Assembly (NCBI RefSeq): GCF_964275005.1 | Contig: NC_092706.1 | Location: 26,756,942 to 26,820,941 of the forward strand | Length of the DNA: 64,000 bases | Reading direction: 5' to 3' | Origin: Diadema setosum | Taxonomy: Eukaryota; Echinodermata; Echinoidea; Diadematoida; Diadematidae | In this document: positions 3,611 through 39,713 of the stretch, one piece after another | Layout: each line of letters begins with the position of its first letter | Numbering within the stretch: the first letter of the stretch is position 1 | Made by a program: the position numbers and the translations under genes | The notes under the pieces: generated by a model | The model's database searches: none | Seen by the model: the letters and a program-made list of their open reading frames with translations, nothing else | Told to the model about the DNA's origin: nothing

Positions 3611-4181
3611 TGTATAGTAGCCCTACTACAATTGTACATATCGACCACCCTTATTGAAACCGACCGCGTATAATTCGCGCACTGAACACTTAGTACGCAC
3701 TTTTCTGCGCGCAAAGCACATAAAAATGGATTGGCTTTGAATGTAGATTAGGATGGTGTGGGAAAACGCGATAATTCACTGTTCATTAATGGTTTTAATC
3801 AAGGACAAAATTTCGAATGAATATTTTCACCGAATCGTAATGACAGCACAATGTAATGTCTATGGAAGTTTCTAAAAGGCTTCTAAAAAGCTTCGTACAA
3901 CACGGTGTTCAATACAACTCGGTTTACGTGCATTGTCAATGCAAAATCAGCGGTCGATCCTAAAAACGCGATTTACCGCGGGGAGCTGAAACGAGGCCAC
4001 GCAAGTTCGTCGGCGATATTTTTGCACTGAAACTTCGAATCGAAAAGGGAACAACGGCATTTGATAGAGCTGGATTTTCTCAATCACGTAGGTCAAGTTT
4101 TTTACGTGAATTTCAGTGTTAAATATTCTTATCAAGCAAATAAACATTAGGCGGTCGATTAGTAGTAGGTCCAACCCTACA
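3611..4181 (+). repeat. direct repeat copy 2 (571 bp)
   Basis: Second copy of the block at 1881-2443, offset by 1730 bases at the left end and 1738 at the right because of an extra 8 bases (about 3631-3638). The near identity implies recent duplication, recent gene conversion, or an assembly artefact. Confidence 0.85.
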
Positions 4182-15610: not shown

Positions 15611-17078
15611 AAGGGACTGCACAGTACTGGTTGAGTCGAGGATTCAGGTTTATAACTTTTTTTTTTTTGGGTGAGATAATGAGAAACCTCTTATATAATA
15701 CGAAAGAGCATGTAATTTCCAGAAGGACTCCATGTTCATTTGATGAAACTTGACCTTGAAATGGCTGAGATATCAAAAAAAAAAAAAGCGATCCTGATAA
15801 AATTGACAGGCCACGACTTTTATGGGATCTCTTTGTTTTTCCCTTTTTTTAAAAGATATCTCAGTCATTTCAAAACCGATTTTCATCAAATAAACTTTTA
15901 ATTCCCCTTTTATAGAATTGTATGCTCTTTAACATTCCATAGAGTGGTTTTTACACATCTCGCAAGATGTTACAAGCTGAATCCTCACCTCAACTATTAG
16001 TCCATGGGCCAGGCCAGATATTAGTACCACCTGAGGTGGCAAAACCTTTTTGGTGTCATTTTGTTTGTCGGGCATAGATATGCTTATCAAGCTATGATAA
16101 CATTTCCAAATGAGTAGCTTAGTCATAATAAATGAATTTTTAGCCAATTTGGTCTCGTTGTTATATTCCTATACTTCTCAATCGAGACTAACCGCTATAC
16201 AAAGAAGAGCACTGTCTTCTATGTGTTCACAGGTGTTCTGTTGTAAACGCGGTGCGCTTAGTCTGTATTCAAGGCAGCGAAGGGAACATCCAATGGTTAT
16301 GATGTCCACAGCGCTTAGTCTTTATTCAAGACGGCGAAGGGAATATCCAAAGCTTATGATAGTACAGTGTATATCAGTTTATCTAAAAACAACAACAACA
16401 ACAAAAAAGCAATTCCTCGTGAATTTTACCGTATTTTTTAATAATTTATCATTTTCCGGTGAAAACGCTACGGTGAAAACGCTAATACCACGCCAACGTC
16501 GCTTTATTTCCATCCAACAATGAAAGATGATGCAAAAACAATGTACCGGTACACTACAATACATTATAATAAATAATATTGTAAATGAACAGATTGATTT
16601 TTGTTTAAAACTGATGTATTTGTTTGGAGGGTAGTATAAAAACAGTATAGATAATCCCTTTTATTAGGAACTTTAGATATGATAACGGTACATCTTTCTA
16701 GATAGAGACTAAGCGCACCGCGTGACAGCTGTGGACATCATAACCTTTTGGATATTCCCTTCGCTGCCTTGAATAAAGACTAAGAGCACAGCGTTTACAA
16801 CAGAACGCCTGTGGACAATAATAGAGAGGACAGTGCTCTTCTTTGTATAGCGGTTAGTTTCGATTCAGAAGTGTAGGGATAAAAAAACGAGACCACATTG
16901 GTTAAAAATTCATTTATTATGACTAAGCTACTCATTTGGAAATACTATCATATCTTGATAAGCATATCTATGCCCGACAAACAAAATGACACCAAAAAGG
17001 TTTTGCCACCTCAGGTGGTACCAATAACCCATTTTTCGGGTCTTGGCCCATGGACTATGTACTGTACAGTCCCTTTAA
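15611..17078. mobile_element. palindromic MITE (GGGACTGTACAGTA ends), split by a nested element
   Basis: The left end (from 15613) reads GGGACTGCACAGTACTGGTT. The matching inverted end is at 17061-17073 with TTAA at 17075-17078; the left flank has TTGA, a likely decayed TTAA. The left body at 15613-15997 is itself palindromic, as in the related copy at 51945-52330. A second fold-back (15998-17057) interrupts it just before the right tip. It is non-coding. Confidence 0.75.
15998..17057. mobile_element. 1.06 kb fold-back element nested in the preceding MITE
   Basis: The left arm (15998 to about 16370) and right arm (about 16690-17057) are long imperfect inverted repeats. Outer tips are TAGTCCATGGGCC and its inverse. 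Matching inner phrases include GCCACCTCAGGTGG, CATTTGGAAAT and CTTCTTTGTATAGCGGTTAG. Within each arm a roughly 60 bp block with AAGGCAGCGAAGGGAA is partly duplicated. ORFs here, including one of 137 codons, are by-products of the repeats. A TA-type target duplication is possible but not clean. Confidence 0.8.
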
Positions 17079-18198: not shown

Positions 18199-18543
18199 TT
18201 GTAGAGCCCACTAATGTCAAAATCGACCACTAATGTCAAAACAACCACTAATGTCATAACACGTCGACGACAAATGTCATAACAACCACTAATGTCATAA
18301 CACGTCGACGACAAATGTCATAATGACCACTAATGTCATAACACGTCGACGACAAATGTCAAAATCGGATTAACCACTAATGTCATAACACGTCGACGAC
18401 AAATGTCAAAATTTCCATTTTTACTGCAAATGTCATAACACGTCGACAACAAATGTCAAAATCGGATTAACCACTAATGTCATAACACATCGACGACAAA
18501 TGTCAAAATTTCCAAATTTTACTGCAAATGTCATAACGCGTCA
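18199..18543 (+). repeat. left minisatellite arm, fold-back 1
   Basis: Tandem units of about 41-50 bp contain CCACTAATGTCATAACA, then the palindromic CGTCGACG core, then ACAAATGTC. Each unit has one GTCGAC hexamer. The same unit appears inverted in the right arm. Confidence 0.85.
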
Positions 18544-20391
18544 CAGGGGCATATCCAGGAATTCCGTAAAGGGGAGGAGCCTTTACAAAATCAAAGGCTG
18601 GCGAGACCCTCCCTCCCCCCCCCCCCCTTTTCTTATTTTTATTTCTGTTGCGTTAACAAAATATAGAGAGAGGGCACCAGAGGGGGATGCGCCCCCTCTC
18701 GATCCGCGATTGAGTCAACCGCAAATGTCAAAATTGGGTTAATCACAAATGTCATAACACGTCGACCACAAATGTCATAACGGGTCATAGAGGCGGATCC
18801 AGGAATTCCGTAAAGGGGAGGTGCCTTTCCAAAATCAAAGGCCAGCAAATCCCCTCCCCTTTCTTTTTCTTTTTTCTTTCTTTTGTTTTAACAAAAACAG
18901 AGACGAGAAGGGGCCGCAGCGCCCCTCTAGATCCGCCACTGCGTCAACCACAAGTCAATGTCAAAACCCATCATTTGCATTACAGAGACGGATCCAGGAA
19001 TTCCGTAAAGGGAGGCGCTTTTACAAAGTCAATGGCTTCCACACCACCTCCCCATTTTTTTCTTTTTATTTATGTTGTTAAAAAAAATAGAAGGGGGCAC
19101 CATAAGGGGATGCGTGCCCTCTCCATCTATGATTGCGTTAACCACAAATGTCAAAACTCATTGCTTGCATTACTGGGGCGGATCCAGGAATTACGTAAAG
19201 GGGAGGCGCCTTTACAAAATTAAAGCTGCCGTACCCCCTTCCCATTTTCCCCTTTTTAGTTTTATTGTTTTAACTGAAAGAGAGAGAGAGAGGGGGGAGG
19301 ACACCAAAGAGGATGCGCCCCCTTCTCGATTCGCGATTGCGTCAACCACAAATGTCAAAACTCATTGCTTGTAATACAGGGGCGGATCCAGGAATTGCGT
19401 AAAGGGGGGGGGGCACCTTTACATAATTAAAGCCTGGCGCATCCCCCATCTTTTTGTTATTATTTATGTTGTTTTGAAGGGAAAAAAAAAGAGAGGGGGC
19501 ACCAGAGGGGGATGCGCCCGTCTCGATCCGCGATTACGTCAACCACAAAATTAATGATATAATGTCAAAACTCATTGATTGCATTACAGGGGCGGATTCA
19601 CGATTTTCTTAAAGGGGAGGCGCCTTTACAAAATTAAAGCTGCCGCACCCCACCCCCATATTTCCCCTTTTTAGTTTTATTGTTTTAACTAAAGAGAGAG
19701 AGAGAGAGAGAGAGAGAAAGGGGGGGGGATGCGCGCCCCCTTCTCGATCCACGACTGTGTAAACCACAACAACAACAAAAATGTCAAAACGCATTGCTTG
19801 TAACACAGGGGCGGATCCAGGAATTGCGAAAAGGGGGGAGGGGCACCTTAACTAAAGAGTGGCACATCCCCATCTTTTTGGTATTATTTATGTTGTTTTG
19901 AAGATTTTTTTTTTCTTTTTATTCATGTTGTTTTTTAAGGGGGGCACCAGAGGGGGGATGCGCCGTCTCGATCCGCGATTGCGTCAACCACAAAATGTCA
20001 GAACTCATTGCTTGCATTACAGGGGCGGATCCAGGAATTCCGTAAAGGGGAGGCGCCTTTACAAAATCAAAACCTGCCGCACGCCCTATTTTTTTTTTCA
20101 TTTCATTTGGGCTGTTTCTACAATAATAATAATAACAACAACAACAACAAAATAGCTACCGCGCCACTATTTTTTTCTTTTTATTTCTGTTGTTTTAACA
20201 ACAGCAAAAAAAGATAGAAAGGGGGCACCAGAGAGGTATGAGTCCCCTCTCGATCCGCGATTGCGTCAACCACAAATGTCAAAACTCATTTCTTGCATTA
20301 CAGGGGCGGGTCCAGGAATTCCGCAAAGACGTCTTTTCAAAATGACAGGCTGGCGTAACCCCCCTCAACTTATTTATTTCTTTTTATTTTT
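18544..20391 (+). repeat. plus-oriented array of MITE-derived units, fold-back 1
   Basis: Nine units begin near 18544, 18786, 18983, 19173, 19377, 19587, 19806, 20020 and 20301 with CAGGGGCGGATCCAGGAATT-like sequence. Each then has a GGAGGCGCCTTTACAAAAT block, a poly-C/T-rich middle, GGGGGCACCAGAGGGG, and ends CTCGATCCGCGATTG or, in the better-kept unit near 18930, CTAGATCCGCCACTG. A 40-50 bp spacer with ACAAATGTCAAAA links units. The tips are hAT-like terminal inverted repeats and the spacer is minisatellite sequence. Confidence 0.85.
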
Positions 20392-21764
20392 ACGGAATTC
20401 CTGGACCCGCCGCCGCGGCCCCTGTAATGCAAGGAATTAATTTTGACATTTGTCGTTGACGCAATCGCGTATCGAGAGGGGGAGCATCCCCCTCTGGTGT
20501 CCCCTAACTATTTTTTGTTGTTAAAACAACAGAAATGAAATGGAAAAAAATAGGGGGAGCGGCATGTTTTAATTTTGTAAAGGCGACTCCCCTTTACGGA
20601 ATTCCTGGATCCGCCCCTGTAATGCAAGCAATGAGTTTTGACATTGTGGTTGAGGCAATGGGGGATCGAGACGGGCGCATCCCCCTCTGGTGCCCCCTCT
20701 TTTTTTCTTTTCTTCAAAACAACATAAATGATAACAAAAAGATGGGGGTGCGCCAGGCTTTCATTGTGTAAAGGTACCCCCCCCCCTTTACGTAATTCCT
20801 GGATCCGCCCATGTTTTACAAGCATTGAGTTTTGACATCAGTCTGTGGTTGACGCAATCGCGGATCGAGAAGGGGGCGCATCCTCTCTGGTGCCCCCTTC
20901 TCTCTCTCTCTCTTTCAGTTAAAACAATAAAACTAAAAGGGGAAAATGGGGAGGGGGTGCGGCAGCTTTAATTTTGTAAAGGCGCCTCCCCTTTACGGAA
21001 TTCCTGTATCCAGGAATCCAGGCAATCATGGATCGTGAGAGGGCGCATCCCTCTCATGTGCCCCCTTTCTTAAAAAAAAACAACAACCCAACATAAATAA
21101 AAAGAAAAAAAATCTTCAAAACAGCATAAATAATAACAAAATGATGGGGGGGGGGGGGAATGCACCAGGTTTTAATAAAGGTGCCCCCCCCCCCTTTACG
21201 TAATTCCCGGACCCGCCCCTGTATTACAAGCAGTGAGTTTTGACACTTGTGTTTTGCGCAATCGCGGATCGAGAAGGGGGCGCATCTCCCTCTGGTGCCC
21301 CCCTCTCTCTCTCTCTTTAGTTAAAACAATAAAACTAAAAAGGGGAAAAATGGGGGTGGGCGCGGAAGCTTTAATTTTGTAAAGGTGCCTCCCCTTTACG
21401 GAATTCCTGGATCCGCCCCAGTAATGCAAGCAATTAGTTTTGATATTTATGGTTAACGCAATCGCGGATCGAGACGGGCGCATCCCCCTCTGGTGCTCCC
21501 TCTCTTTATTTTCTTCAAAACAACATAAATAATAAGAAAAGGATGGGGGGATGCGCCAGGCTTTAATTATTAAGGTGCCCCCCCCCCCCCTTTACGTAAT
21601 TCCTGGATCCGCCCCTGTATTACAAGCAATGAGTTTTGACATTTGTGGTTGACGCAATCGCGGATCAAAAAGGGGGCGCATCCCCCTCTGGTACCCCTCT
21701 CTCTCCCTCCCTCTCTCTCTCTCTCTCTCTTTAGTTTAAACAATAAAACTAAAACCCTGTGACG
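20392..21764 (-). repeat. minus-oriented array of MITE-derived units, fold-back 1
   Basis: About seven units of the same family in inverse orientation, with GGAATTCCTGGATCCGCCCCTG tips near 20394, 20599, 20791, 20996, 21200, 21398 and 21597. Several units carry CT/GA microsatellites in the same internal place as the opposite arm (for example near 19281 and 21305). Confidence 0.85.
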
Positions 21765-22107
21765 CGTTATGACATTTGCAGTAAAATTTGGAGATTTTGA
21801 CATTTGTCGTCGACGTGTTATGACATTAGTGGTTAATCCGATTTTGACATTTGTCGTCGACGTGTTATGACGTTTGCAGTAAAAATAGAAATTTTGACAT
21901 TTGTCGTCGACGTGTTATGACCGTATTAGTGGTTAATCCGATTTTGACATTTGTCGTCGACGTGTTATGACATTAGTGGTCATTATGACATTTGTCGTCG
22001 ACGTGTTATGACATTAGTGGTTGTTATGACATTTGTCGTCGACGTGTTATGACATTAGTGGTTGTTTTAACATTAGTGGTCGATTTTGACATTAGTGGGC
22101 TCTACAA
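21765..22107 (-). repeat. right minisatellite arm, fold-back 1
   Basis: Inverse of the arm at 18199-18543, ending GGGCTCTACA. The adjoining sequence at 22108 begins the left arm of the second fold-back with only a few bases between. Confidence 0.8.
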
Positions 22108-22398
22108 CACGTCGACGACAAAATATAATGTCAAAACAACCACTAATGTCATAGCACGTCGACGACAAATGTCATAACAACCACTAATGTCATAACACGT
22201 CGACGACAAATGTCGAAATCGGATCAACCACTAATGTCATAACACGTCGACGACAAATGTCAAAATTTCCATTTTTACTCCAAATGTCATAACACGTCGA
22301 CGACAAATGTCAAAATCGGATTAACCACTAATGTCATAACACGTCGACGACAAATGTCAAAATTTCCAAATTTACTGCAAATGTCATGACGCGTCACA
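22108..22398 (+). repeat. left minisatellite arm, fold-back 2
   Basis: Same GTCGACGACAAATGTC unit as the outer arm at 18199, but without the terminal TGTAGAGCCC tip, so this end looks truncated or recombined onto fold-back 1. Confidence 0.8.
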
Positions 22399-25070
22399 AG
22401 GGCGGATCCAGGAATTCTATAAAGGGGAGGCGCCTTTACACAATTAAAGGCTGGCGCGACCCTCGCCCCCCCCCCCCATTTTCTTATTTTCATTTCTGTT
22501 GTGTTGACAAAATACAGAGAGGGGGCACTAAAAGGGGGATGCGCCCCCTCTAAATCCGCGATTGCGTCAACCACAAATGTAAATATTGGATTATCCACAA
22601 ATGTCATGACACGTCGACCACAAATGTCATAACGCGTCACAGAGGCGAATCCAGGAATTCCATAAAAGGAAGGGGGGAGGGCGCCTTCACAAAATCAAAG
22701 GCTGGCGCGACCCATCTTTTGTTATGTTTGTTTCTGTTGGTTTAACCTAATATAGTGAGGGTGCACGAGAGGGGGAAGCGCCCCATCTCGATCCATCATT
22801 GCGTCATTGCTTGCATTACAGGGGCGGATCCAGGAATTTTGTAAAGAGGAGGCGTCTTTACAAAGTCAAAGGCTGGCGCGACCTTCCCTCTCCCCATTTT
22901 CTTATTTTTATTTCTGTTGTGTTGACGAAATAAAGAGAGGGGCACTAAAGGGGGATGCGCCCCCTCTCAATCCGCGATTGCGTCAACCACAAGTCAAAAT
23001 CGGGGATTAACCACAAATGTCATAACGCGTCACAGGGGTGGATCCAGGAATTCCATAAAAGGGGGGGGGGGGGGGCGCCTTTACAAAATCAAAGGCTGGC
23101 GCGACACTCCCCCCACCCAATTTCTTTTTTTTTTTTGTTGTTTCTGCTTTTGCTTTAACCTAATAATTATAGTGAGGGTGCACCAGAGGGGGATGCGCCC
23201 CCTCTCGATCCATCATTGCGTCAACCACAAATATCAAAACCCATTGCTTGCATTACGGGGGCGGATCCAGGAATTCCGTAAAGGGGAGGCGGCTTTAAAA
23301 AATTAAAGGCTACCGCACCCCCCCCCCCCATTTTTTTCTTTTTACCTATCCAATTGTTTTAACCACAAAAAAAAAATAGAAAAGAAAAGAAAGGGGGCAC
23401 CAGATGGGGATGTGCCCCCTCTCGATCTATCATTTCGTCAACCACTAATGACCAAACTCATTGCTTGCATTACAGGGGCGGATCCAGGAATTTCGTAAAG
23501 GGGAGGCGTCTTTACAAAGTCAAAGGTTTGCACGACATTCCCCCTCCCCTATTTTCTTCTTTTTCTTTCTGTTGTGTTGACGAAATAAAGAGAGGGGGCA
23601 CTAATGAGGGATGCGCCCCCTCTCAATCTGCGATTGCGTCAACAGCAAATGTCAAAATCGGGGATTAACCACAAATGTCATAACGCGTCGACCACAGATG
23701 TCAACATTTTCAAACTAACTGCAAATGTGTTAACGCGTCACAGGGGTGGATCCAGGAATCCCGTACAGGGGAGGGGCGCCTTTAAAAAATCAAAGGCTGG
23801 CGTGACCCCCCCCCCCCCCCCATTTTCTTATTTTTACTTCTATTGTTTTAACATAATACAGTGAAGGGGAACTAGAGGGGGAAGCACCCCCTCTCGATCC
23901 ATGATTGCGTCAACCACAAATATCAAAACTCATTGCTTGCATTACGGGGGCGGATCCAGGAATTCCGTAAAGGGGAGACGGCTTTACAAAATAAAAGGCT
24001 CCCGAACCCCCCCCCCCATTTGTTTTTTTTTTTTTATCTATGTTGTTTTAACAAACAAAAAAAAGAAAAGAAAAGAAAGGGGGCACCAGAGGGGGATGCG
24101 CCCCCTCTCGATCCATGATTGGGTCAACCACAAATGACCAAACTCATTGCTTGCATTACAGGGGCGGATCCAGGAATTTCGTAAAGGGGAGGCGTCTTTA
24201 CAAAGTCAAAGGCTGGCGCGACCCTCCGCCATCCCCCATTTTCTTCTTTTTATTTCTGTTGTCTTGATGAAATAAAGAGAGGGGGTACTAAATGGGGATG
24301 CGCCCCTCTCATCTCAATCCGCGATTGCGACAACCGCAAATGTCAAAATCGGAGATTAAGCATAGATGTCATAACACGTCGACCACATGTGTCAAAATTT
24401 TCAAACTAACTGCAAATGTCATAACGCGTCACAGGGGTGGATCCAGGAATTCCGTAAAGGGGATGGGCGCCCTTAAAAAATCAAAGGCTTGCGCGACCCC
24501 CCCCCCCCCCCCATCATCTTATTTTTATTTCTGTTGTTTTAACATAACACAGTGAGGGGTACCAGAGCCCCCTCTCGTTCCATGATTGCGTCAACACCAA
24601 ATATCAAAACTCATTGCTTCAATTACAGGGGCGGATCCAGGAATTCCGTAAAGGGGAGTCGCCTTTACAAAATCAAAGGCTGGCGAGACCCCCCCCCCCC
24701 CCCCCATTTTCTTATTTTTATTTATGTTGCGTTAACAAAACATAGCGAGGGGGCACCAGAGGGGGATGCGCCCCCTCTCGATCAGCGATTGTGCCAACCG
24801 CACCGCAAATGTCAAAATTGGATTAACCACAAATGTCATAAGACGTCGACCACAAAAGGCCCCCCCCCCCTCTTGATCCGCGACTGCGTCAACCACAAGT
24901 TTGTGGCAAATCTCATTGTTTGCACTGCATTGGGCGGAACCAGGAATTCCGTAAAGGGGAGGCCCCTTTACAAAATTAAAGATTGCCGCATCCCATTCTT
25001 TTCTTTTCCTTCATTTTTTACGTTTAAACAAAAGACATAAAAAGAAATAAATAAGGGGGAGGGGGATTGC
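22399..25070 (+). repeat. plus-oriented array of MITE-derived units, fold-back 2
   Basis: About twelve units start near 22400, 22640, 22820, 23031, 23263, 23473, 23739, 23946, 24160, 24430, 24625 and 24930. Alternate units have different spacers: a short one with ACAAATGTCAAAACTCATTGCTTGCATTA, or a long one with several minisatellite phrases and GTCGACCACA. This indicates a higher-order repeat of two or more units. Several units have C-runs of 12-15. Confidence 0.8.
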
Positions 25071-25232
25071 GCAAGCCTTTCATTTTGAAAAGACGTCTCC
25101 TCTTTGCGCTTTAAGGAATTCTTGGACCCGCCCCCGTAATGCAAGCAATGAGTTTTGACATTTGTGGTTGACGCGATCGCGGATCGAGAGGGGGCGCATC
25201 CCCCTCTGGTGCCCCTTTCTATGTTTTTTTTT

Positions 25233-26581
25233 ATGCCTCCGCCACGAAGTGGTGCCGGAGGCATTATGTTTTCGGGTTGTCCGTCCGTCCGTCCGTCCGT
25301 CCGTCCGTCCGTCCTTCCGTCCGTCCGTCCGTCCGTCCTTCCGTCCGTCCGTCCGTCCGTCCTTCCGTCCGTCCGTAATGAATTTTGTGGACAAGGTAAC
25401 TATCAAAACCTGTTGAGGTATCCTAATGAAACTTGGCATGTATGTGTATTAGGGGGTGAAGTTGTGCCTATCAACTTTTGGGTGCACATGCTCAAGGTCA
25501 AAGGTCAAAAGGTCAAGGTCAAATACATAAAATTTCACTATTTCCACCATATCTATTGAATGCCTGAAGATATTTTCTTGAAACTTAGTGTATACATGTA
25601 TTACCCAATTAATATTCTCTGGTGAAAGTTTGGGTCATGAGGTCAAAGGTCAAAGGTCAAAAGGTCAGGGTCAAATACATAAAATTTCACTATTTCCACC
25701 ATATCTATTGAATACGTGAAGATATTTTCTTGAAACTTAGTGTATACATGTATTACCCAATCAAGATTCTCTGGTGAAAGTTTGGGTCATGAGGTCAAAG
25801 GTCAAAAGGTCAAAAGGTCAAGTAAAAATATTAAAACTTCTTTTTTTTTTCCTCCATACCTTGGAAAATTGTTCAAGGTATCTTCATAGAACATAGTATA
25901 TTTCATGGGGTTCATGAGGTTCATGGGGTCAAAGGTCAGGGGTCAAAGGTCAAGTGCAACACTTCAAAATTTTACTATTTCCCTCCTATCATGCAATGCC
26001 AGCAGGGTTATTTTTTTTTTACACTTGGTGTATGCATACATGTGTAACCTAATAGAAATTCTCTGGAAAGTTTTTTTTTCTTCTTTTTTTGCCTCAAAGG
26101 TCAAAAGGTCAAAGATCAAGTGAAAGTGCTGAACTAACTTTTTCCTCCATATCTCGGAAGTGGCTCAAGTTATCTTGAAACTTAGTACATATTATGCATG
26201 TTCTACCTGAAAGTGATTATCTTACAAATTTTAGGGTCAAGGGCCAGATGAAAATGGTAACAATTTACTATTCAATTCAGAAATTGCACTTTTTCTCCAC
26301 ACCTGTACCTTGAAAATTACTGAATGCCTAAATGTATGAATGAGTCAAAGTCGAGTTAAAAGTCCTTAAATCCCTAGATACATGCTCTCCTATTCATCCA
26401 ATTAAACCTAGGTCAAGGAAGGTGAACATTCAACACATTTGTGACAAACTTGTCATTTCAATATTTTGCCAATTTTGTGAAAATGTAATCACACATTGTC
26501 CACATGTACTATCTAGACCTATTGGGAAAATCATGCATTATGGCGGAGGCATACCAGTCGCCAAAGCGACATTTCTAGTTG
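25233..26581 (+). mobile_element. CCTCCGCC-type repeat element with GTCC microsatellite, inserted in a poly-T tract
   Basis: It begins ATGCCTCCGCCACGAAGTGG with a local inverted repeat and GGAGGCATTATGTTTTC, then about 100 bp of (GTCC)n/(CCTT) at 25271-25376. Near the right end is the inverted ATTATGGCGGAGGCAT, then CGCCAAAGCGACATTTCTAGTTG. The interior consists of 145-150 bp units rich in AAGGTCA. The flanking poly-T belongs to the interrupted array unit. The start resembles the element at 49995, so they are one family. ORFs reading PSVRPSVRP are microsatellite translations. Confidence 0.7.
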
Positions 26582-29019
26582 GTTTTTTTTTTTTTTTTTT
26601 TTGTTAAAACAACAGAAGTGAAATAAAAAAAAAATAGGGGTGCGGCATAACGCGTTACAGGGGCGGATCAAGGAGTTTCGTAAAGGGAGGCGTCTTTACA
26701 AAACTAGAACTGCCGCACCCCCACCCCCATTTTTTTCTTTTTTTTTCTATTGTTTTAACTACAGAAAAAGAAAGAGAGGGAGCACCAGAGGGGGATGCGC
26801 CCCCTTCTCGATCCGCGATTGCGTTAACCATAACATCAATACTAATTGCTTGCCTTACAGGGGCGGATCCAGGAATTCCGTAAAGGTGAAGCGCCTTTAC
26901 AAAATTAATATCTGCCGCACCCCCTAATTTTTCTTTTCATTTTTCTATTGTTTAAAAAAGATTAACCCGTTGCATACTAAATTCTGAAATCCCCATAGGT
27001 TTAATACACAGGCCACCAGGTTCCCAAATGGAACGGGTTAAAGGAGTCACCATAGAGGTATGCGCCCCCTCTCGATCTGCGATTGGGTCAAACACAAATG
27101 TCAAAACTCATTGCTTGCATTAGAGGGGCGGGTCCAAACTCCGTAAAGGAGAGGCGCAGTTTATAAAATCAAAGGCTTGCGCAAACCGCCTCGCCTTTTT
27201 TTTTTTCATTTAATTTCTTTTGTGTTTACAAAAATAGAGACGGGGATGGGGTACCGTGTCCCCCTCTAGATCCGCGACTGCGTCAACCACAAGGTAATGG
27301 CAAAACCCATTGTTTGCATTATAGGGGACGGAACCAGGAATTCCGTAAAGGGGAGGCTCCTTTACAAAATTAAAGACTGCCGCTTTAACTGTCCTTTAAA
27401 CAAAAGATATAAAAAGAAATTGATAAGGGGGAGGGGGATTGCGCCAACCTTTCACTTTGAGAAGACGTCTCCCCTTTACGCTTTACGGAATTCCTGGACC
27501 CGCCCCTGTAATGCAAGCAATGAGTTTTGACATTTGTGGTTGACGCAATCGCCGATCGAGAGGGGGCGCATCCCCCTCTGGTGCCCCTTTCTATTATTTG
27601 TTGTTGTTAAAATAACAGAAATGAAAAAAATAGGGGGTGCGGCAGGTTTTAATTTTGTAAAGGGGCCTCCCCTTTACGGAATTCCTGGATACGCCCCTGT
27701 AATGCAAGCAATGAGTTTGGTCATTTGTGGTTGACGCAATCATGGATCGAGAGGGGGCGCACCCCCATGGTGCCCTCTCTCTATATTTTGTTAAAACAAG
27801 AGAAAATGAAAAGAAGAAAATGGGGTGGTGTCGCGCGAGCCTTTGATTTTGTAAAGGCGCCTCCCCTTCACGAAATTCCTGGATACGCCCCTGTTACGCG
27901 TTATGACCTTTGTGGTCGACGTGTTATGACATTTGTGGTTAATCCCTGATTTTCACATTTTTACGGTTGACGCAATCGCGGACTGAGAGGGGGCGCATCC
28001 CCCTTTAGTGCCCCTCTCTTTATTTCGTCAACACAACAGAAATAAGAAGAAAAAAAATGGGGAGGGTCGCGCCAGCCTTTTATTTTGCAAAGGCGCCCCT
28101 CCCCGTTACGGAATTCCTGGACCGCCCCTGTAATGCAAGCAATTAGTTTTTCCATTTGTGGTTGACGCAATGATGGATCGAGAGGGGGCGCATTCTCCTC
28201 TGGTACACCCTCACTATATTAGGTTAAACCAACAGAACAAAAAAAAAAAAAAATGGGAGGGGGGTGGGGGTCGCGCCAGCTTTTGATTTTGTAAAGGCGC
28301 CCCCCCCCCCCGTTTACGGAATTCCTGGATCCACCCCTGTGACGCGTTATGACATTTGTGGTCGACGTGTTATGACATTTGTGGTTAATCCCCGATTTTG
28401 ACTTGTGGTTGACGCAATCGCGGATTGAGAGGGGGCGCACCCCCCTTTAGTGCCCCTCTCTTTATTTCGTCAACACAACAGAAATAAAAAGAAGAAAATG
28501 AGGAGGGGGGAGGGTCGCGCCAGTCTTTGACTATGTAAAGACGCCTCCCCTTTACAAAATTCCTGGATCCGCCCCTGTAATGCAAGCAATGAGTTTTTCC
28601 ATTTGTGGTTGACGCAATGATGGATTGAAAGGGGCGCTTCCCCTCTGGTGCACCCTCACTACATTAGGTTAAACCAACAGAAACAAAAATAAGAAAAGGT
28701 GGGTGGCGCCAGCCTTTGATTTTGTAAAGGCGCCCCCCCCCCCCCCTTTACGCAATTCCTGGATCCGCCCCTGTGACGCGTTATGACATGTTTTTTGTGG
28801 TCGAGATGTTATGACATTTGTGGTTAATCCAATATTGATATTTGTGGTTGACGCAATCGCGGATTTAGAGGGGGCGCATCCCCCTTTAGTGCCCCCTCTC
28901 TGTATTTTGTCAACACAACAGAAATAAAAATAAGAAAATGTGGGGGGGGGGGGGCGAGGGTCGCGCCAGCCTTTGATTTTGCAAAGGCGCCTCCCCTTCA
29001 TGGAATTCCTGGATCGGCC
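26582..29019. repeat. remaining MITE-derived units, fold-back 2 (plus then minus)
   Basis: Plus units lie near 26657, 26858, 27120 and 27325. Minus units follow with tips near 27487, 27677, 27870, 28110, 28316, 28556, 28752 and 29001. A short TTAA element is inserted at 26966-27037. Confidence 0.8.
26966..27037. mobile_element. 72 bp TTAA MITE inserted in the array
   Basis: TTAA at 26962-26965 and 27038-27041 flank inverted tips CCCGTT...AACGGG. It interrupts one array unit within its poly-T/A-rich part. It is a very small piggyBac-type derivative. Confidence 0.7.
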
Positions 29020-29406
29020 CTTGTGACGCGTCATGACATTTGCAGTAAATTTGAAAATTTGGACATTTGTCGTCGACGTGTTATGACATTAGTGGTTAAT
29101 CCGATTTTGACATTTGTCGTCGACGTGTTATGACATTTGGAGTAAAAATGGAAATTTTGACATTTGTCGTCGACGTGTTATGACATTAGTGGTTGATCCG
29201 ATTTTGACATTTGTCGTCGTCGTGTTATGACATTAGTGGTTGTTTTGACATTTGTCGTCGACGTGTTATGACATTAGTGGTTGTTATGACATTTGTCGTC
29301 GTCGTGTTATGACATTAGTGGTTGTTTTGACATTTGTCGTCGACGTGTTATGGCATTAGTGGTTGTTTTGACATTAGTGGGCGATTTTGACATTAGTGGG
29401 CTCTAC
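29020..29406 (-). repeat. right minisatellite arm, fold-back 2
   Basis: Inverse GTCGTCGACGTGTTATGACATT units ending GGGCTCTACA at 29406. Some units have GTCGTCGTCG in place of the palindromic CGTCGACG. Confidence 0.85.
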
Positions 29407-29564
29407 AGGCCTCCTGATGTGATCGTTGTTTTATCGCGATTAGTCTTCAATTCACACAAAGGCAATACAAGTCCAGACCGCGTTGGCTGAAGGATATACC
29501 CCCTCCCCCACCCAACGGGTTTCATGGGACATAGTGTTCACCCTGATAGCAGACTGACGTCAAT

Positions 29565-29873
29565 AAGACGTCTTAACTTGGTCGCAACTGGTAAAACTGG
29601 TCGCACGTCATATTTAAACCATTAAAAGACGTAAAATTTACGTCAGTTTTGTGACGTATATATCACGTCATTTTAGCGACGTATTTATGACGTGAATTTC
29701 ACGTCAGTCTTGAGACAAGTATTCATTATGTCATATTAGCGACGTATTTATGCCGCATAAATCACGTCAGTTTTGTGACGTGTTCATCACGTCATATTAG
29801 CGATGTATTTATGACGTGAATTTCACGTCAGTTTTGTGACGTGTTCATCACGTCATGTTAACGACGTATTTAT
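29565..29873. repeat. ACGT-core minisatellite, left part
   Basis: Units of about 61 bp contain five ACGT cores, for example GACGTATTTATGACGTGAAT. It continues after the LINE at 33676. Confidence 0.85.
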
Positions 29874-30097: not shown

Positions 30098-32746
30098 TCA
30101 GAGACATTTAGTAAAATTTAACCACTTTTTCATAAATTTCTTTTCTTTCAGATTTGTTTTACATATATACTTTTCAATATCATAATAACTTTTTATCGCT
30201 GACATGATTTGTTCAAAAACTGGCAAACAATTTTTGCATTTGGCTGTAAAAATTTCTTTCCTTACTATAATCATAATGCAATTGAGGGCACTGTTATTAC
30301 GTCCATAAAAACCAAATAATTTATTTTGATTTGTAAGCTTGATATGAATAGCATTACGGGACAGCCAAAGCTCAAGTTTTGACCATATCTCGTTTGAATA
30401 TATACAAGAACAAAATATATGCATAATTGTTTCTTCGCTATTATTACAAAAAGTACATAAGTTATCTGTTACTAATTTAAATCTCAATAAAGCGTCTTTC
30501 ATATAAAGAATTCTATTTAGCATCTTGAACTGAAACCATCTCATGTTTACATCGACAGTTGAATAAAAGGGAATTTGGTAATTAAAACTCCAAATGATAT
30601 TGTCAAAATCAAACTCCTGTTTCCATTTTATAAGACTTTTACATTCCTTTGTCTTATGTTTCAAGAAAGCCTGGTAGATATGTGCAAAACCTTTTTTCAC
30701 TTTCAGTATTAAAAACAATGTTTCAGGGATAATACATGTAGGTTCCATAATCTTAGGTATGACATTTTTATTATAATTAAATCGAATAGCATTACACAAA
30801 CCATAATATTGAAGAAAGTTTACTTGTGCATTGTATTTACGTTGGAAATCAAAATATGAAAGAAATTTTCCATCTGTTCCTAGAACATCGTTAACAAAAC
30901 GTACCCCCTTAGCACACCATGACTTATAATAAATTACATTATTATTAACTTGTATTCTAGGATTGTTCCAAAGGGGTTGACGTGCGATATTATCTACAAT
31001 GGACTGAGTTAAATCTGAAAAGGCTAATAATACCTCTTTCCAAAATGGGTTGCGCATTGAAATGGCTAATTCTTTGTAATGTTCAGCCCCCATGAATAAG
31101 TGGAGAGATGTGTATGATGGAGGCAAGAATGATTGAAACATATGTAAAGTGAGATTTTCGTTACTTTGATAACAAAATAATCTTCTTATCCATGATATTC
31201 TGAGTGATTTAGAATGTATAATAATATCTGTCATTTTAACCCCACCATCACTGTATAATTGGCACATTTGTTTCCTACTTATTTTATCAGGTTTATCGTG
31301 CCATATAAATTTATAAAAAGATCGGTTAACATCATTCATAATTTCTAATTTTGGTTCTGGAAGAGATAAAAGCAAATAATTCAGTTTGGGTATCAATAAA
31401 GATTTTACTATCGTTACTCTCCCTAAGGGAGTCAATGTTCTTTTCAGCCATATCACTATCTGACGTTTTATCTCTTTAACCTTTTCTTGATAATTGTGAT
31501 TAACCATTTCAGATAATTTAACTGAAAAATCAATGCCCAGGTACCTGAAATATCCTTCAGATATCCAGTTTAATTTGTACTCGTGTAAAATCTCTTTTTT
31601 GAAAGTTCTGTTCTTCCCAATCCATATTACTTGAGTTTTAGTTACGTTAATTTTGAGGTTGGACATATTTGCAAATTCATTAAGTATTGTAAGAGCACTT
31701 TGTAAATCCTGGGTTGAACCGTTGAGTGTCAAAAGGGTATCATCTGCATATTGCAAAAGTTTAAGCGATTTCCCATTCATATGCAATCCAAGTAAAGAAT
31801 CCGAGTGTCGCATTAGGATACCAAGTATTTCACTGACTAACAAAAAGAGGTAGGGGGACAAAGGATCTCCCTGGCGACACCCTCGTCCTATTTCAAATCT
31901 ATCTGTACAGTATCCGTTAACTAATACACAAGAGGATGCATTTGCATAAAATAACTTGATCCATTTCTTTACAGATGGACCGAAGTGAAAAAAATCCAGG
32001 ACCTTGAATAGAAAAGTATGCGATACGGAATCGAAAGCTTTTTCGAAATCGACAACAAGAAGCATGCCTGCTATATCATTTAATTCAGTATAAAGTAGCG
32101 TATCATATAATAGACGTATATTTTCGCCAATGAAGCGACCACTCAAAAATCCTGTTTGATTTTCATGTATTAAAAAAGACAAAACGCCCTTGAGTCTATT
32201 TGCAATACAACCGGATGCCAATTTGTAAACTACATTCAGTAAAGTGATCGGGCGCCAATTTTTAAACAAATGTCTAGGTTTATTTCCTTTAGGAATCAAG
32301 GTTATTATTCCCATTTTTTGTGAGTTTGACAATTGTCCTGAGAAATACGCATAATTCAGTGATCTTACCAGAAAATATTTAATATCTTCCCAGAAGTAGC
32401 GATAAAATTCTACAGTAAAACCATCCTGTCCGGGAGATTTATTAATTTTCATAAGTTTTAAATTGGAATAGACCTCATCAACACTAAGTGGACCTTCCAA
32501 TAAAGAGGACAATTGTGAAGACAACTTAGGAATGTCAGGATGATTTAATAACATTTCCAAATTAATTTCATCAGTTTCTTTTTCTGCATAAAGATTAGAG
32601 TAAAAATCAAACACTACCTTAAGTATATCATTTTGTTTATCTAAAATATCACCATTTTCAGTCGATAACTGACGTATTTCTTTATTGATATTATTTTGCT
32701 TTTCCAAATTTAAAAAGAATTTAGAAGGTTTTTCTCCAAACTCCAT
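30098..32746 (-). CDS. LINE ORF2 reverse transcriptase (882 codons open)
   Basis: Reverse transcriptase of an L1/Tx1-group LINE, which copies element RNA at a nicked target site. Motifs in order: GQDGFTVEFY at about 106, NWRPITLLNVVYKLAS at about 163, motif A DFEKAFDSVSH at about 233, motif B GRGCRQGDPLSPYLF at about 287, and the catalytic YADD at 333-336. A C-terminal CTFCNNSEETIMHIFCSC zinc-knuckle-like motif follows the thumb. The frame is fully open and the catalytic residues are present, but it lacks an intact upstream endonuclease. The start at 32746 is just the first Met after the frameshift. Confidence 0.93.
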   Translation of the reverse strand: MEFGEKPSKFFLNLEKQNNINKEIRQLSTENGDILDKQNDILKVVFDFYSNLYAEKETDEINLEMLLNHPDIPKLSSQLSSLLEGPLSVDEVYSNLKLMKINKSPGQDGFTVEFYRYFWEDIKYFLVRSLNYAYFSGQLSNSQKMGIITLIPKGNKPRHLFKNWRPITLLNVVYKLASGCIANRLKGVLSFLIHENQTGFLSGRFIGENIRLLYDTLLYTELNDIAGMLLVVDFEKAFDSVSHTFLFKVLDFFHFGPSVKKWIKLFYANASSCVLVNGYCTDRFEIGRGCRQGDPLSPYLFLLVSEILGILMRHSDSLLGLHMNGKSLKLLQYADDTLLTLNGSTQDLQSALTILNEFANMSNLKINVTKTQVIWIGKNRTFKKEILHEYKLNWISEGYFRYLGIDFSVKLSEMVNHNYQEKVKEIKRQIVIWLKRTLTPLGRVTIVKSLLIPKLNYLLLSLPEPKLEIMNDVNRSFYKFIWHDKPDKISRKQMCQLYSDGGVKMTDIIIHSKSLRISWIRRLFCYQSNENLTLHMFQSFLPPSYTSLHLFMGAEHYKELAISMRNPFWKEVLLAFSDLTQSIVDNIARQPLWNNPRIQVNNNVIYYKSWCAKGVRFVNDVLGTDGKFLSYFDFQRKYNAQVNFLQYYGLCNAIRFNYNKNVIPKIMEPTCIIPETLFLILKVKKGFAHIYQAFLKHKTKECKSLIKWKQEFDFDNIIWSFNYQIPFYSTVDVNMRWFQFKMLNRILYMKDALLRFKLVTDNLCTFCNNSEETIMHIFCSCIYSNEIWSKLELWLSRNAIHIKLTNQNKLFGFYGRNNSALNCIMIIVRKEIFTAKCKNCLPVFEQIMSAIKSYYDIEKYICKTNLKEKKFMKKWLNFTKCL

Positions 32747-32787
32747 CCACTTTATCCGAGATCTAATCGCACTTCCTTCATTTGATT

Positions 32788-32991
32788 TTAACGGAAAGCT
32801 TCCAATTCTAATTTCAATTTATCAATTTCCTCTAATATGGAATTCTTATCATTTAAAATTGTCAATTTTCTTTCTAACTCTTCAATTTTCTTTTCTAAAT
32901 CCTTTTCACTATTCACACTTTGTTTTTTAACGAAAGAAGCATATGATATTGCTTCTCCCCGTATTATCATCATTAAAGTTTCAAAAAATAA
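32788..32991 (-). pseudogene. LINE ORF2 linker between endonuclease and RT
   Basis: Same frame as the endonuclease segment after one stop. It holds the conserved MMIIRGEAISYASFVKKQ linker and a coiled-coil-like stretch (LEKKIEELERKL). A frameshift between about 32746 and 32790 separates it from the reverse transcriptase frame. Confidence 0.85.
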
Positions 32992-33675
32992 CTAATCATT
33001 TACAATAAATTCACAGTCACCCACTATGCAATCATTTTGATCGAACTGCACTCCGTCTTTTGCATAAAACAGAATAGTATCTTTTATTTTTTTCTTAATG
33101 TGTGAAACAAAACCTTCGTTTTTTAGCAAAGAATTATTAAATTTCCAAAAACCAGGGCCTCGTTGTAACTGATTCAAACTGAGACTTAAAAGAATTAAAG
33201 AATGATCTGTTCGATAACCTGGAAGAATATCAACCTTATGCACTAATGAAAGAAGTTCTGAGGATATCAAAAAGAAATCTAATCTACTCTGTTTAAAAGG
33301 GGTAGGTTGTCGCCATGTATAATATTTTTTATCTGAAAATCTAATTCTCCAAGGATCACATAAATCTAATTCATCTTTCATGTTATTTACTTGTTGTTTT
33401 GCTCGCGGGTTATTAACATGCAAGTAGTTATATGTATCAAGGTTTGAATCTTGTACTAAATTCCAGTCTCCACAAACAATAGCGTGTGGATTCTCAAAAT
33501 CTAGTATAATTTGTTGAAGATCTGCAAAAAATGTCGGGTTGTCTGTATTTGGACCATACAACGACGCGATAGTAATATTATATTCGTACAGAGTTACATC
33601 TAAAACCACAAAGTTCCCTGCATTATCTACTTTAAATTTATTTATATTTACCGGGACAGCGTTCTTAAAAAGAAA
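32992..33675 (-). pseudogene. LINE ORF2 endonuclease domain, 5'-truncated
   Basis: The open frame runs from the truncation point (FLFKNAVPVNINKF) leftward. It contains the APE-type endonuclease landmarks GDWNLVQD, SRLDFFLIS and YRTDHSLI, and WKFN after the domain. The N-terminal catalytic residues are absent. A TAG stop at 32992-32994 ends it, but the same frame reopens directly afterwards. Confidence 0.9.
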
Positions 33676-34762
33676 AACGACGTATTTATGACGTAAATTT
33701 TACGTCACTTTGCGACGTATTTATAACGTCATGTTAGCGACGTATTTAAGACGTAAATTTCACGTCAGTTTTGTGACGTCTTCACGTCATATCAGGATGT
33801 ATTTATGACGTTAATTTCACGTCAGTTTTGTGACATGTTCATCACGTCATGTTAGCGACGTATTCATGACGTGAATTTTACGTCACTTTTTAGACGTGTT
33901 CATTACGTCATATCAGCGACGTATTTATGACGTAATTTTCTCGTCAGTTTTGTGACGGTTTCATCACGTCATATTAGGGGTGTATTTATGACGTGAATTT
34001 CAGTCAGTTTGTGACGTGTTCATCATGTCATATTAGCGACGTATTTATGACGTAAATTCCTACGTCATTTTTGCGACGTATTTATCACGTCATGGTAGCG
34101 ACGTATTTATTACGTTAATTTCACGCCATTTTTTGACGTGTTCATCACGTCATATTAACGATGTATTTATGACGTCAATTTCACGTCAGTTTTCTGACGT
34201 GTTCATAACGTCGTGTTAGCGACGTATTTATGACGTAAATTTCACGTCACTTTTGTGACGTATTTATTACGTCATAATAGCGACGTATTTAAGACGTAAG
34301 TTTCTCGTCAGTTTTGTGACGTGTTCATGACGTCATATTAGGATGTACTTATGACGTGAATTTCACGTCAGTTTGTGACGTGGTCATCACGTCATAGAGC
34401 GACGTATTTATGACGTAAATTCTACGTCAGTTTTGCGACGTATTTATCACGTCATGTCAACGACTTATATATGACGTAAAATTCACATCAGTTTCATGAC
34501 TATTTAGGATCACGTCATATTAGCGAAATAATATGACGTATAATTCACGTCAGTTTTGTGACGTGCTTATGACGTCATATTCAACATGTAGTTATGACGT
34601 AAATTTCACATCAGTTTTGCGATATATTCATCACGTCATATTAGCCACGTATTTATGACGTAAAATTTACGAGAATTTTGTCATATATTTAGCGCGTAAT
34701 ATTACCCTTACTACATATGGAGTAATAATTTCGTCAGTTTTTGCGACGTATATTACTTATTT
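33676..34762. repeat. ACGT-core 61 bp minisatellite, main block
   Basis: About 17 diverged units. In the consensus unit the ACGT cores are spaced 11, 11, 14, 11 and 14 bp. Cores sit in TGACGT, CACGTCA and GACGTA contexts. Confidence 0.85.
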
Positions 34763-36868: not shown

Positions 36869-39713
36869 CATGGGCGTAAATCCCGGGGGGGGGGATGGGG
36901 GGATATATCCCCCCCTGAAATGGAGGAGGGGGGATGGCCTGTACAATCATCCCCCCTGAATTTTTAGGAAAAAAATGGAGGAAGCAGAAATGTGATATGT
37001 ATCAATTTTGGCATATTGCATGACGTTTCTACGCCGGCCTTCAGACAGGTAACAGAGCTGAACAATATATGCTATCTTGTAGGAAAATGTATACACAATT
37101 TTTTTCAGGCGCTCGCTCGCTTCGCTCGCTCGCGAAGAAAGTAACATCGACATACACTGCGAGGTATGGCTCAGACGTTGACAACGTCAAATAGTATAGG
37201 CCTACATGTAAACATCCTATGACGCGAGTAACTGGGGACCATCTGCAAAATATGTACGAAAACAAACAAACAAACAATAACAAAAAATATGTCGCCATAA
37301 TTGAACCCCCTCCATTTCCTGAATCATTACTGAGAAACGACAGTGACTGATGACTCGGTCAGGATACATCTATGGGCATACCAAGGGAAGATCAGGGGCG
37401 TCGAATCTATTGGGGGGGGGGGGGCAAAGGGGCATTTGCCCCGCCCCTATACGGATGTGTTTAGGCAGACAAATCATTTATCCCCCAAGCAATTCCCGAG
37501 ATGAGGACAAATCTCGAACTTTCTTAATGGAAAATATTGTCCAAATATCGCCAGAATTATGCACCAGATCGTTGTATTGCAATCATAAACATGCAAATGC
37601 TCTGCTATACAGGATCCCTTTCGATAAACTTTGTACACTTTTGATATTGACGTATATTTCCCTAATTTATCAAAGAGTGTGGAGCAGATCTTTCACTTAA
37701 AAAGCACCCTCATATTATGAAGAGGCGTCGATGGGGGGGGGGGGTGGTTCCCCCATAAAAGTGGGACAAACAAAAGCGAAAAATATAGCTACAAACGGCA
37801 GTTTTTGGAGTGTAAAATGTCAAAATTTTTAAGCTCGCTCGCTCCGCTCGCTCGCATTTAACCGCTATGCCATTCTCCTGATGTTGCTGCCAGTGACTGA
37901 CAGCAGTTGCGCCCGGTGCGCCCCCCTTAATTGCCAAAGCGAAAAATATAGCTACAAACGGCAGTTTTGGGACTGTAAAATGTCAAAATTTTGAAGCTCT
38001 CTCGCTTCGGCCCTCGCTCGCATTCGCAGTAATTAACTAATCATTATTCCATTCTCCTTGTGTTGCTGCCAGTAATTGCCAGCAGTTTTCGCCCGGTGCG
38101 CCCCCCCCCCCTTAATTTCCAAAGCGAAAAATATAACTACAAGCGGCTGTTTTTGGGACTGCAAAATGTCAAAATTTTGAAGCTCGATCGCTTCGCTCGC
38201 TCGCATTTAACCATTATGCCATCCTCCTGATGCTGCTGCCAGTAATTGCCAGTAGTTTTCGCCCGGTGCGCCCCCTTAATTTCCAAAGCGAAAAAATACA
38301 GCCACAAACGACAGTTTTTAGACTGTAAAATGTCAAACTTTTCAAGCTTACTCGCTTCGCTCCCTCGCATTTAATCATTATGCTATTCTCATGATGTTGC
38401 TGCCAGTAATTGCCAGCAGTTTACGCCCCTTGCGCCCCCCTTAATTTCCAAAGCAAAAAAAATACAGCCACAAAGGACAGTTTTTTAGACTGTAAAATAT
38501 CAACATTTTCAAGCTCACTCGCTTCGCTCGCTCGCATCGTTATGCCATTTTCCTGATGTTGCTACCAGTAATTGCCAGGAGTTGCGCCCGGTGTGCCCCC
38601 CCCTTAATTTCCAAAGCGAAAAAATACAGCCATAAACGGCAGTCTTTGGACTGTAAAATGTCAAAAATTTTCAAGCTCGCTCGCTCCGCTCGCTTGCATT
38701 TAACCACTATGTCATTTTCCTGATGTCGCTGCCAGTGATTGACAGCAGTTGCGCCCGGTGCGGCCCCCCTTAATTTCCAAAGCGAAAAATATAGCTACAA
38801 ACGGCAGTTTTTAGACTGTAAAATGTCAAAAATTTCAAGCTCGCTCGCATTTAATTGCTATGCCATTCTCCTGATGTTGCTGCCAGTGATTGACAGCAGT
38901 TGCGCCCGGTGCGGCCCTCCTTAGTTTCCAAAGCGAAAAATATATATAGCTACAAACGGCAGTTTTGGGACTGTAAAATGTCTAAATTATTAATGCAAAA
39001 AGATTTCATCGTGGGAGGGGGAAACCTCCCTACCATACCCTCCCCCCCCCCCCCCCCTCGCTTGCTTCGCTCCCTCCGTGGCACATAACCGCTCCTCCTA
39101 AGATCAAATCCTGTCTACGCCGGTGATAGGCCCCATTATTCAGTAGGCCTTCATAGTGATGTCGCACAGGCGGAGCAAGAGCTGAAATACCACGATTTAG
39201 TCATTCAATAATATATTGTGAATATTTCATTTTCTTATTGTTTTTTAAAGAAAAGAAAACAAAATTTCACCAAAAGTGTGCACCAGATCGCTGAATTTCA
39301 GGTCTGATAATTCAAAATCTTCCTAGTGTGGGAGAGGGATACACACCCTCCCCGCGTTCGGTCGTTCCGCTCCCTCTCACAGATATTTCAAAAACAAAAA
39401 GAAAAATGTTTTCATGCTTTTAAGGTCTCATTTTCCGCCGAAAGTCATCTGACAAGCAAAAAAAAAAAAGCAACAAGAACAAAACGTCTTCATATTTTTG
39501 CTGCCACTTTCCTCCCTACTTATTCCATGCAAAAGAGTGGGACATCCGATCCCTGTAAAGTGTGTGTGTGTGTGTGGGGGGGGGGGGGGTCACCAAGCTT
39601 CCCTTCCCCCCCCCCCCCCCCCCCCCCCAAGGCTGCGCCGGTCCGGTTATGGGCTTGTAATCGTGGTGATGGTGACCATCCCCCCCACTCCTCAGTACGG
39701 ATTTACGCCGTTG
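36869..39713. mobile_element. hAT-like non-autonomous element with 8 bp target duplication
   Basis: The left tip CATGGGCGTAAATCC (36869) and the inverse right tip reading CAACGGCGTAAATCC from 39713 are flanked by identical 8-mers, TTCGTGGG (36861-36868 and 39714-39721). An 8 bp duplication with CA...TG tips is the hAT signature. The 2.8 kb interior has no transposase ORF; it carries a tandem array (37770-39060) and several long G- or C-runs. A second hAT-like tip, CAGGGGCGTCGAATC, at 37393 suggests another element inside. Confidence 0.8.
37770..39060 (+). repeat. tandem array of about 165 bp units with GCTCGCTCGC motif
   Basis: Eight units start near 37768, 37938, 38120, 38284, 38452, 38615, 38779 and 38930 with CAAAGCGAAAAATATAGC. 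Each has a GCTCGCTCGCTTCGCTCGCT-type motif, then TGATGTTGCTGCCAGTGATTG, CAGCAGTTGCGCCCGGTGCG and a C-run. The last unit is truncated. A similar GAGCGAGC motif is in the tandem repeat at 10338-10960. Confidence 0.85.

Follow-up and report, generated by a model that had tools for sequence, protein, structure and literature searches.

A captured miniature transposon as the probable source of the satellite core in a foldback element family of the sea urchin Diadema setosum

Introduction

How does one transposon become a satellite inside another? The conversion of transposons into satellites has commonly been inferred from end products alone. Here, we study a locus of Diadema setosum where this question arises, within a 64,000-nucleotide stretch of DNA (G000:C24:26756942-26820941, hereafter the window). 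It holds an array of units resembling a miniature inverted-repeat transposable element (MITE), enclosed by inverted arms of minisatellite. The first-pass annotation of the window had proposed that a MITE inserted into one minisatellite unit of a TU-like element, and that the block of MITE plus unit was then amplified and inverted. What had been described at the locus is partly confirmed, and the proposed interpretation is supported, with amendments. The locus belongs, very probably, to a family of non-autonomous foldback (FB) DNA transposons whose interior is a satellite that arose from a captured MITE. The genome searched comprises 912,680,840 bases in 102 contigs.

Results

Two foldback elements in tandem

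The complex is composed of two elements, FB1 and FB2, with the following parts (strand in brackets, a point standing where neither strand is meant):

18200..29407 (.): whole complex, two FB elements in tandem
18200..22106 (.): FB1, subtype I (single axis), built as arm, + core, axis, - core, arm
18200..18543 (+): FB1 left arm, a 41/97-bp minisatellite with the terminus TGTAGAGCCCACTAATG
18544..20263 (+): FB1 MITE units A+1 to A+8
18788..18941 (+): unit A+2, the sole aligned unit with a CACTG end, as in most isolated MITEs
20302..20461 (.): subtype I axis, inside a MITE
20462..21754 (-): FB1 MITE units A-1 to A-6 plus one partial unit
21761..22106 (-): FB1 right arm, identical to the FB1 left arm at 337 of 343 aligned bases
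22107..29407 (.): FB2, subtype II (two axes), its left arm lacking the first 58 bp
22107..22396 (+): FB2 left arm, truncated
22397..24791 (+): FB2 MITE units B+1 to B+11
24930..25135 (.): FB2 axis 1, a MITE with two left ends
26658..27280 (+): FB2 MITE units C+1 to C+3
27324..27507 (.): FB2 axis 2, the hybrid MITE of axis 1 in the same orientation
27546..29023 (-): FB2 MITE units C-1 to C-7, of which C-7 to C-4 mirror B+1 to B+4
29030..29407 (-): FB2 right arm, terminus intact

The four arms (290-378 bp) consist of minisatellite and are 94-98% identical in pairwise comparisons of ungapped columns, and the terminus is exact at all three complete ends (18200, +; 22106, -; 29407, -). Searches with nhmmer placed some 40 complete or partial MITE-like units, all within 18.5-29.0 kb of the window and none in any of the four arms. 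The units are ordered + then - in FB1, and + - + - in FB2. Inverted minisatellite arms thus surround MITE-like units in both orientations, and the fold-back complex first described at this locus stands. The whole complex is flanked by GGCTT and GGCCT, which are alike at four of five bases. Foreign DNA interrupts FB2 at about 25229-26580. This insertion shows a (GTCC)n tract, AGGTCA repeats and a CTAGT end after a short hairpin, and looks Helitron- or Helentron-like.

We aligned 35 core units, leaving out the remaining partial ones, and found a mean pairwise identity of 0.78. The units had been credited with hAT-like tips at both ends, and this is true of the left end, where CAGGGGCGGATC is kept in 13/35 units, more than of the right, which is rarely kept: in 32/35 units the right tip lacks a final CTG. 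The only CACTG end belongs to GATCCGCCACTG at 18930-18941, the tip already singled out, near 18920, as the best kept.

Isolated MITEs as candidate donors

Single MITEs with the tips of the core units exist outside the arrays. We searched the genome with a donor pattern (BCAGGGGCGGATCCAGGAATT) in which a non-A base precedes the tip to filter out core units, and obtained 1823 matches, against none for the reversed control. The first 40 listed were examined; they are not a random sample, because all come from C1, at 0.7 to 24.2 Mb. Setting aside two duplicates leaves 38 distinct copies, of which 35 have a right tip within three mismatches of GATCCGCCACTG (the left tip being given by selection) and were scored, the other three lacking that tip. 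These 35 are 146-306 bp long (at most 200 bp in 32), and 25 end in CACTG or CCCTG, as compared with a CACTG end in 1/35 core units. Exact duplications of 5 bp flank 20 of them, with three more at 6 bp, one at 7 and none at 8; the control for 5 bp gave 3/1190 exact, and 26/35 copies have such a duplication within one mismatch. The 5-bp duplications are a hAT5 signature, and by its sequence the isolated MITE fits a short non-autonomous element of hAT5 type. An 8-bp hAT duplication is ruled out for it by the closure of the insertion site described below and by its absence from the 35 isolated copies. The flanks of the 40 isolated MITEs gave no match to the arm minisatellite. Scans with exact patterns gave no match either, be it for the MITE tip and arm unit in viral contigs or for the MITE tip in a collection of genome contigs.

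An unrooted tree was built from the 35 core units and 32 isolated copies (three were dropped for length). It places 34 of the 35 core units on one side of a branch with 100/99 support, and groups 10 isolated copies on a 100/99 branch of their own. A single clade for all 35 core units is not rejected (approximately unbiased test, p-AU 0.59). As judged from this tree, the core units point to one founder.

The insertion site in the arm

Eleven units have arm or long spacer on their left and were used for a site test, in which duplication lengths of 0 to 10 were tried by closing the site and scoring its fit to the arm. A length of 5 was best in 9/11 units, the exceptions being A+2 (best at 10) and B+2 (flat), and the summed closure score peaks at 5 (516 vs 481 for 6). 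CGTCA is exact on both sides of the MITE in 8/11 units, in agreement with the flanks noted earlier for the better-kept copies. The predicted empty site is found exactly, by letter match alone, at three genome places (C7:29028098; C11:30190525 and 30190575), and at 543 places with at most three mismatches, many of which resemble ordinary arm units. The unoccupied minisatellite site is therefore present as an exact sequence.

Spacers between the units

Of the 35 spacers catalogued, 33 were tested against the arms and two, shorter than 30 bp, were excluded. Nine long spacers (52-137 bp) are arm minisatellite, with scores of 64-127 against a maximum of 29 in 200 shuffles each. They include the following:

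23637..23741 (+): long spacer aligned to one innermost arm unit, CGTCA at either end; the following MITE starts at its last base
24328..24432 (+): another long spacer of this type, starting with CGACA and ending with CGTCA

Two spacers, each of 104 bp, can be aligned to the innermost arm unit, which ends at 18543 and at 22396. They match arm bases 18441-18543 and 18444-18543, i.e., an in-register unit, as predicted by a tandem block made of arm unit plus MITE. Among the other 24 spacers (36-50 bp), nine beat all shuffles and 15 did not. In these short spacers, some 21 bp of minisatellite come first, and the usual end is CTCATTGCTTGCATTA, a sequence foreign to the arm (95.6% of 500 shuffles reached its score). 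The window contains 25 near-copies of this end, where 1.0 would be expected, every one within the complex (e.g., 19157-19172). A junction of 37-38 bp, whose final base belongs to the next MITE, makes up 18 of the 35 spacers. Hence, the annotated identity of spacers and arms applies to the nine long spacers and not to the short ones, given their non-arm end.

Inversion axes and mirror order

Every axis falls inside a MITE, and the MITE interiors are weakly self-complementary, as seen from reverse-strand matches. The two FB2 axes are one hybrid unit in like orientation (score 299 vs 68 reversed), one half of which is shared with the FB1 axis (score 142). When the subtype I axis was used as a query (20320-20465), it had counterparts at 14 of 22 other loci; the FB2 axes are found elsewhere too, both of them in L059 and one in L060. 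Thus, the window joins one subtype I and one subtype II element. The join of FB1 and FB2 at 22106 has no match in the 22 other loci.

In FB2, the mirrored pairing of B+1 to B+4 with C-7 to C-4 is the best of the 24 possible matchings, with a mean of 0.932 as compared with 0.80-0.85 for neighbours. The pairs are sisters in 3/4 cases in one tree and in 4/4 in the tree that includes isolated copies. An alternating x/y order of the FB1 units, noticed by eye, is unsupported on the flanking columns.

A dispersed and mobile family

Across the 912.7 Mb of the genome, we counted 363 exact FB termini (reversed control: none), which imply an estimated 180 or so FB copies. We picked 20 loci of 10 kb via a MITE match. 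Both termini (at most two mismatches) are present in 16 of them, and one is missing from the stretch examined in the other four. The elements in the 16 complete loci have 17 to 43 units, with the exception of L016, which has seven (the 31 of L013 include four that lie outside), and a recurring spacer order is common to many of them. Exact 5-bp duplications flank 12 of the 16, against 3/272 in the control, and were also found in L059, L060 and nine of 10 loci picked by terminus pairs, i.e., in 23 of 28 other FB copies. The family has therefore been mobile and has carried the satellite core along. All 18 complete elements examined contain MITE-like units, and eight of the 10 terminus-picked loci have a MITE in the first 533 bp from the left end. 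The left arms of L089 (from about 235) and L099 (from about 205) break at nearly one arm base and continue into other DNA; they may represent a further FB type or carry an insertion. The idea that L089 is a MITE-free element was abandoned, as it has three core junctions further in.

The exact duplications of FB elements are 77% GC (23 copies) and those of the MITE 41% (20 copies; Fisher p 1.7e-7), and the centre base of FB duplications is G or C in every case. Such a difference in composition makes it likely that two transposases are involved and, as far as these bases tell, that FB elements are moved by one other than that of the MITE.

The best listed alignments of FB1 to other copies span 1.7-3.3 kb at 86-93%, and FB1 is collinear with L010 and L022 over 3.1 kb at 89-90%. 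This collinearity speaks against separate expansions of FB1 and FB2 at the window locus, which we had considered. Amplification and inversion are common to the dispersed family and so did not originate at this locus: the amplified and inverted block anticipated by the first-pass annotation is present as a product, but not as a local event. The starts of L083, L091, L093 and L095, which were picked after equal junction spacings had been noticed, share 96.5-99.6% identity across 423-515 aligned bases. They belong to elements of about 7.7-8.7 kb with exact duplications, suggesting a likely recent burst of movement.

Confinement of the satellite

The short junction has 401 exact copies in the genome. 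Among the 100 listed, 93 have an exact FB terminus at most 10 kb away, as compared with a mean of 1.0 and a maximum of 6 of 100 in a random control. The other seven include two (C3:24.43 Mb) with an arm unit within 3 kb and five that are unexplained. With these figures, escape of the satellite from FB elements is neither shown nor excluded. None of the 40 isolated MITEs has an FB terminus at 10 kb or less, a count that is uninformative because the exact termini on C1 are all at 32-40 Mb, beyond the stretch sampled.

Other features in the window

A long interspersed nuclear element at 30098-33699 (RVT_1, zf-RVT, endonuclease), of the class lacking long terminal repeats, splits a 61-bp minisatellite (29628-29873 / 33678-34704). 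A 299-bp inverted repeat of 91.6% identity (16019-16312 / 16728-17026) is perhaps another small foldback. The window also contains a 547-bp direct repeat of 99.1% identity (1897-2443 / 3635-4181) and tandem repeats of 164/329 bp and 147-195 bp at 37773-38988 and 43768-44560.

Discussion

Single MITEs, the empty-site sequence and nine long spacers made of arm support co-amplification of the MITE and an arm unit. This process would have involved 1) insertion of a MITE of about 160 bp and hAT5 type at a CGTCA site in one 97-bp arm unit, with duplication of 5 bp, a step supported by the sequences of the flanks, the empty site and the donor copies; 2) tandem repetition of the block of MITE plus arm unit, with a variant having a 38-bp spacer and higher-order repeats arising most likely by unequal exchange, where we see the product and propose the mechanism; 3) inversion of the array at an axis located in a MITE, an element with a weakly self-complementary middle, giving a core with opposed halves, a visible product for which we would invoke template switching at the MITE hairpin; 4) movement of the finished element as a unit, with G/C-rich 5-bp duplications and ends unlike those of the MITE, which would imply a different transposase; and 5) placement of a subtype I and a subtype II element in tandem at the window locus, an arrangement that is seen and whose route we infer, and a later insertion into the second. 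Transposition of the whole element, in step 4, is shown by its duplications.

The core units might instead have accumulated by many separate MITE insertions at one site of successive minisatellite units, without amplification. A CGTCG-like site exists in nearly every 48-bp unit, and long-spacer lengths of 53 and 105 come close to a multiple of 48 plus 5. Yet the units with short spacers lack a duplication (the left flank is typically GCATTA, the right one CGTCA), the four window arms are free of MITEs, the CTG end absent from 32 of the 35 core tips is kept as CACTG or CCCTG in 25/35 isolated ones, and all core units but one are on the same side of a well-supported branch, so that we regard this course as very improbable. 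We give slightly less credence still to the reverse derivation, in which the core unit is original to the FB element and gave rise to the MITEs of the genome. Units are indeed present in all complete elements examined, most of which were picked by a MITE match. Against this derivation, the isolated copies are more numerous than FB termini (1823 vs 363), keep their tips better, are flanked by 5-bp duplications and in part form a branch of their own, and the empty-site sequence is present.

The least probable account is an assembly artefact, in which a repeat was falsely mirrored or joined. Palindromic repeats misassemble easily and the FB1-FB2 junction would be most at risk; however, the mirrored stretches diverge (82.8% identity over 705 columns and 88.4% over 1255), and a like architecture with duplications is found at other loci.

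Several observations weigh against the capture and amplification of a MITE as we propose it. No source was found for CTCATTGCTTGCATTA, which makes up 16 bp of the short spacer. The position of A+2 outside the group of 34 units makes a second MITE insertion possible. The three exact empty sites are matches of letters. Sixteen of the 18 complete elements were picked by MITE match, and the left ends of L089 and L099 have no MITE in the first 533 bp. Five of the 28 other FB copies have no exact duplication, and that of the window copy, with its one mismatch, is weak alone (36/272 in the control at up to one mismatch). Neither axis was matched in six of the 22 loci. The mirror order of FB2 has p = 1/24, the smallest attainable, and gene conversion could also yield the pattern; that of FB1 ranks 16th of 120 matchings on flanking columns, no better than chance.

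If the family arose by MITE capture, stages of the conversion can be traced in one genome: donor, empty-site sequence, duplicated site, amplified block, inversion and dispersed copies. This suggests that a satellite may arise in one mobile element via the insertion of another and then spread by transposition. More tentatively, and with more doubt than conviction, the self-complementary middle of the MITE may have seeded the axis, and the resulting palindrome may keep copying one half onto the other. If true, the insertion of one transposon created a new architecture in another: an element whose arms were ordinary minisatellite turned into a transposon that restores its own symmetry, carries a satellite and has branched into subtypes, some with a single axis and some with two. 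The roughly 180 copies make the upkeep of symmetry between foldback arms testable.

Comparison with known systems

The TU elements of sea urchins are foldback elements whose arms contain tandem repeats and which make 8-bp duplications. FB elements have 5-bp duplications, and none of 17 FB copies has an exact one of 8, 9 or 10 bp, which gives no support to a placement among Mutator-type foldback or TU elements, nor to the TU-like label of the first-pass annotation.

The FB ends (TGTAG...CTACA) fit the TGTNR of Ginger / TDD elements in 17/17 copies (PMC2836005), a likeness of ends alone that offers a lead only. Ginger1 and animal Ginger2 make 4-bp duplications, whereas no FB copy of the 17 is exact at 4 bp (PMC2836005). 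hAT5 transposons are defined by 5-bp duplications, and the MITE, a putative member of this group, resembles them in these and in its hAT-like tips (PMC12730594). Its tip also resembles the 11-bp Tip100 repeat CAGGGGCGGAG, but Tip100 insertions have 8-bp duplications, unlike the 5 bp of the MITE (PMC12511174).

Satellites born from foldback elements, such as Tetris, and from MITEs are both already known. In the literature covered, mostly titles and the beginnings of abstracts, we found no MITE that had inserted into the arm of a foldback element and been co-amplified with it. Tetris of Drosophila virilis is likewise a non-autonomous foldback element with internal tandem repeats that became satellite-like; its repeats derive from its own terminal inverted repeat, whereas the present block joins a foreign MITE to an arm unit (PMC4079207). 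Moreover, its target duplications are 8-10 bp, against 5 bp here, and longer satellite arrays are reported for it, whereas none free of FB elements has been demonstrated here (PMC4079207). Xstir and miDNA4 of Xenopus resemble our system in having a MITE as the source or carrier of tandem repeats (PMC9659126, PMC12628747). In those systems, the MITE is described as giving rise to the repeats or enclosing them, whereas here an entire MITE is repeated together with a repeat of its host, inside a second transposon whose ends are different (PMC9659126, PMC12628747).

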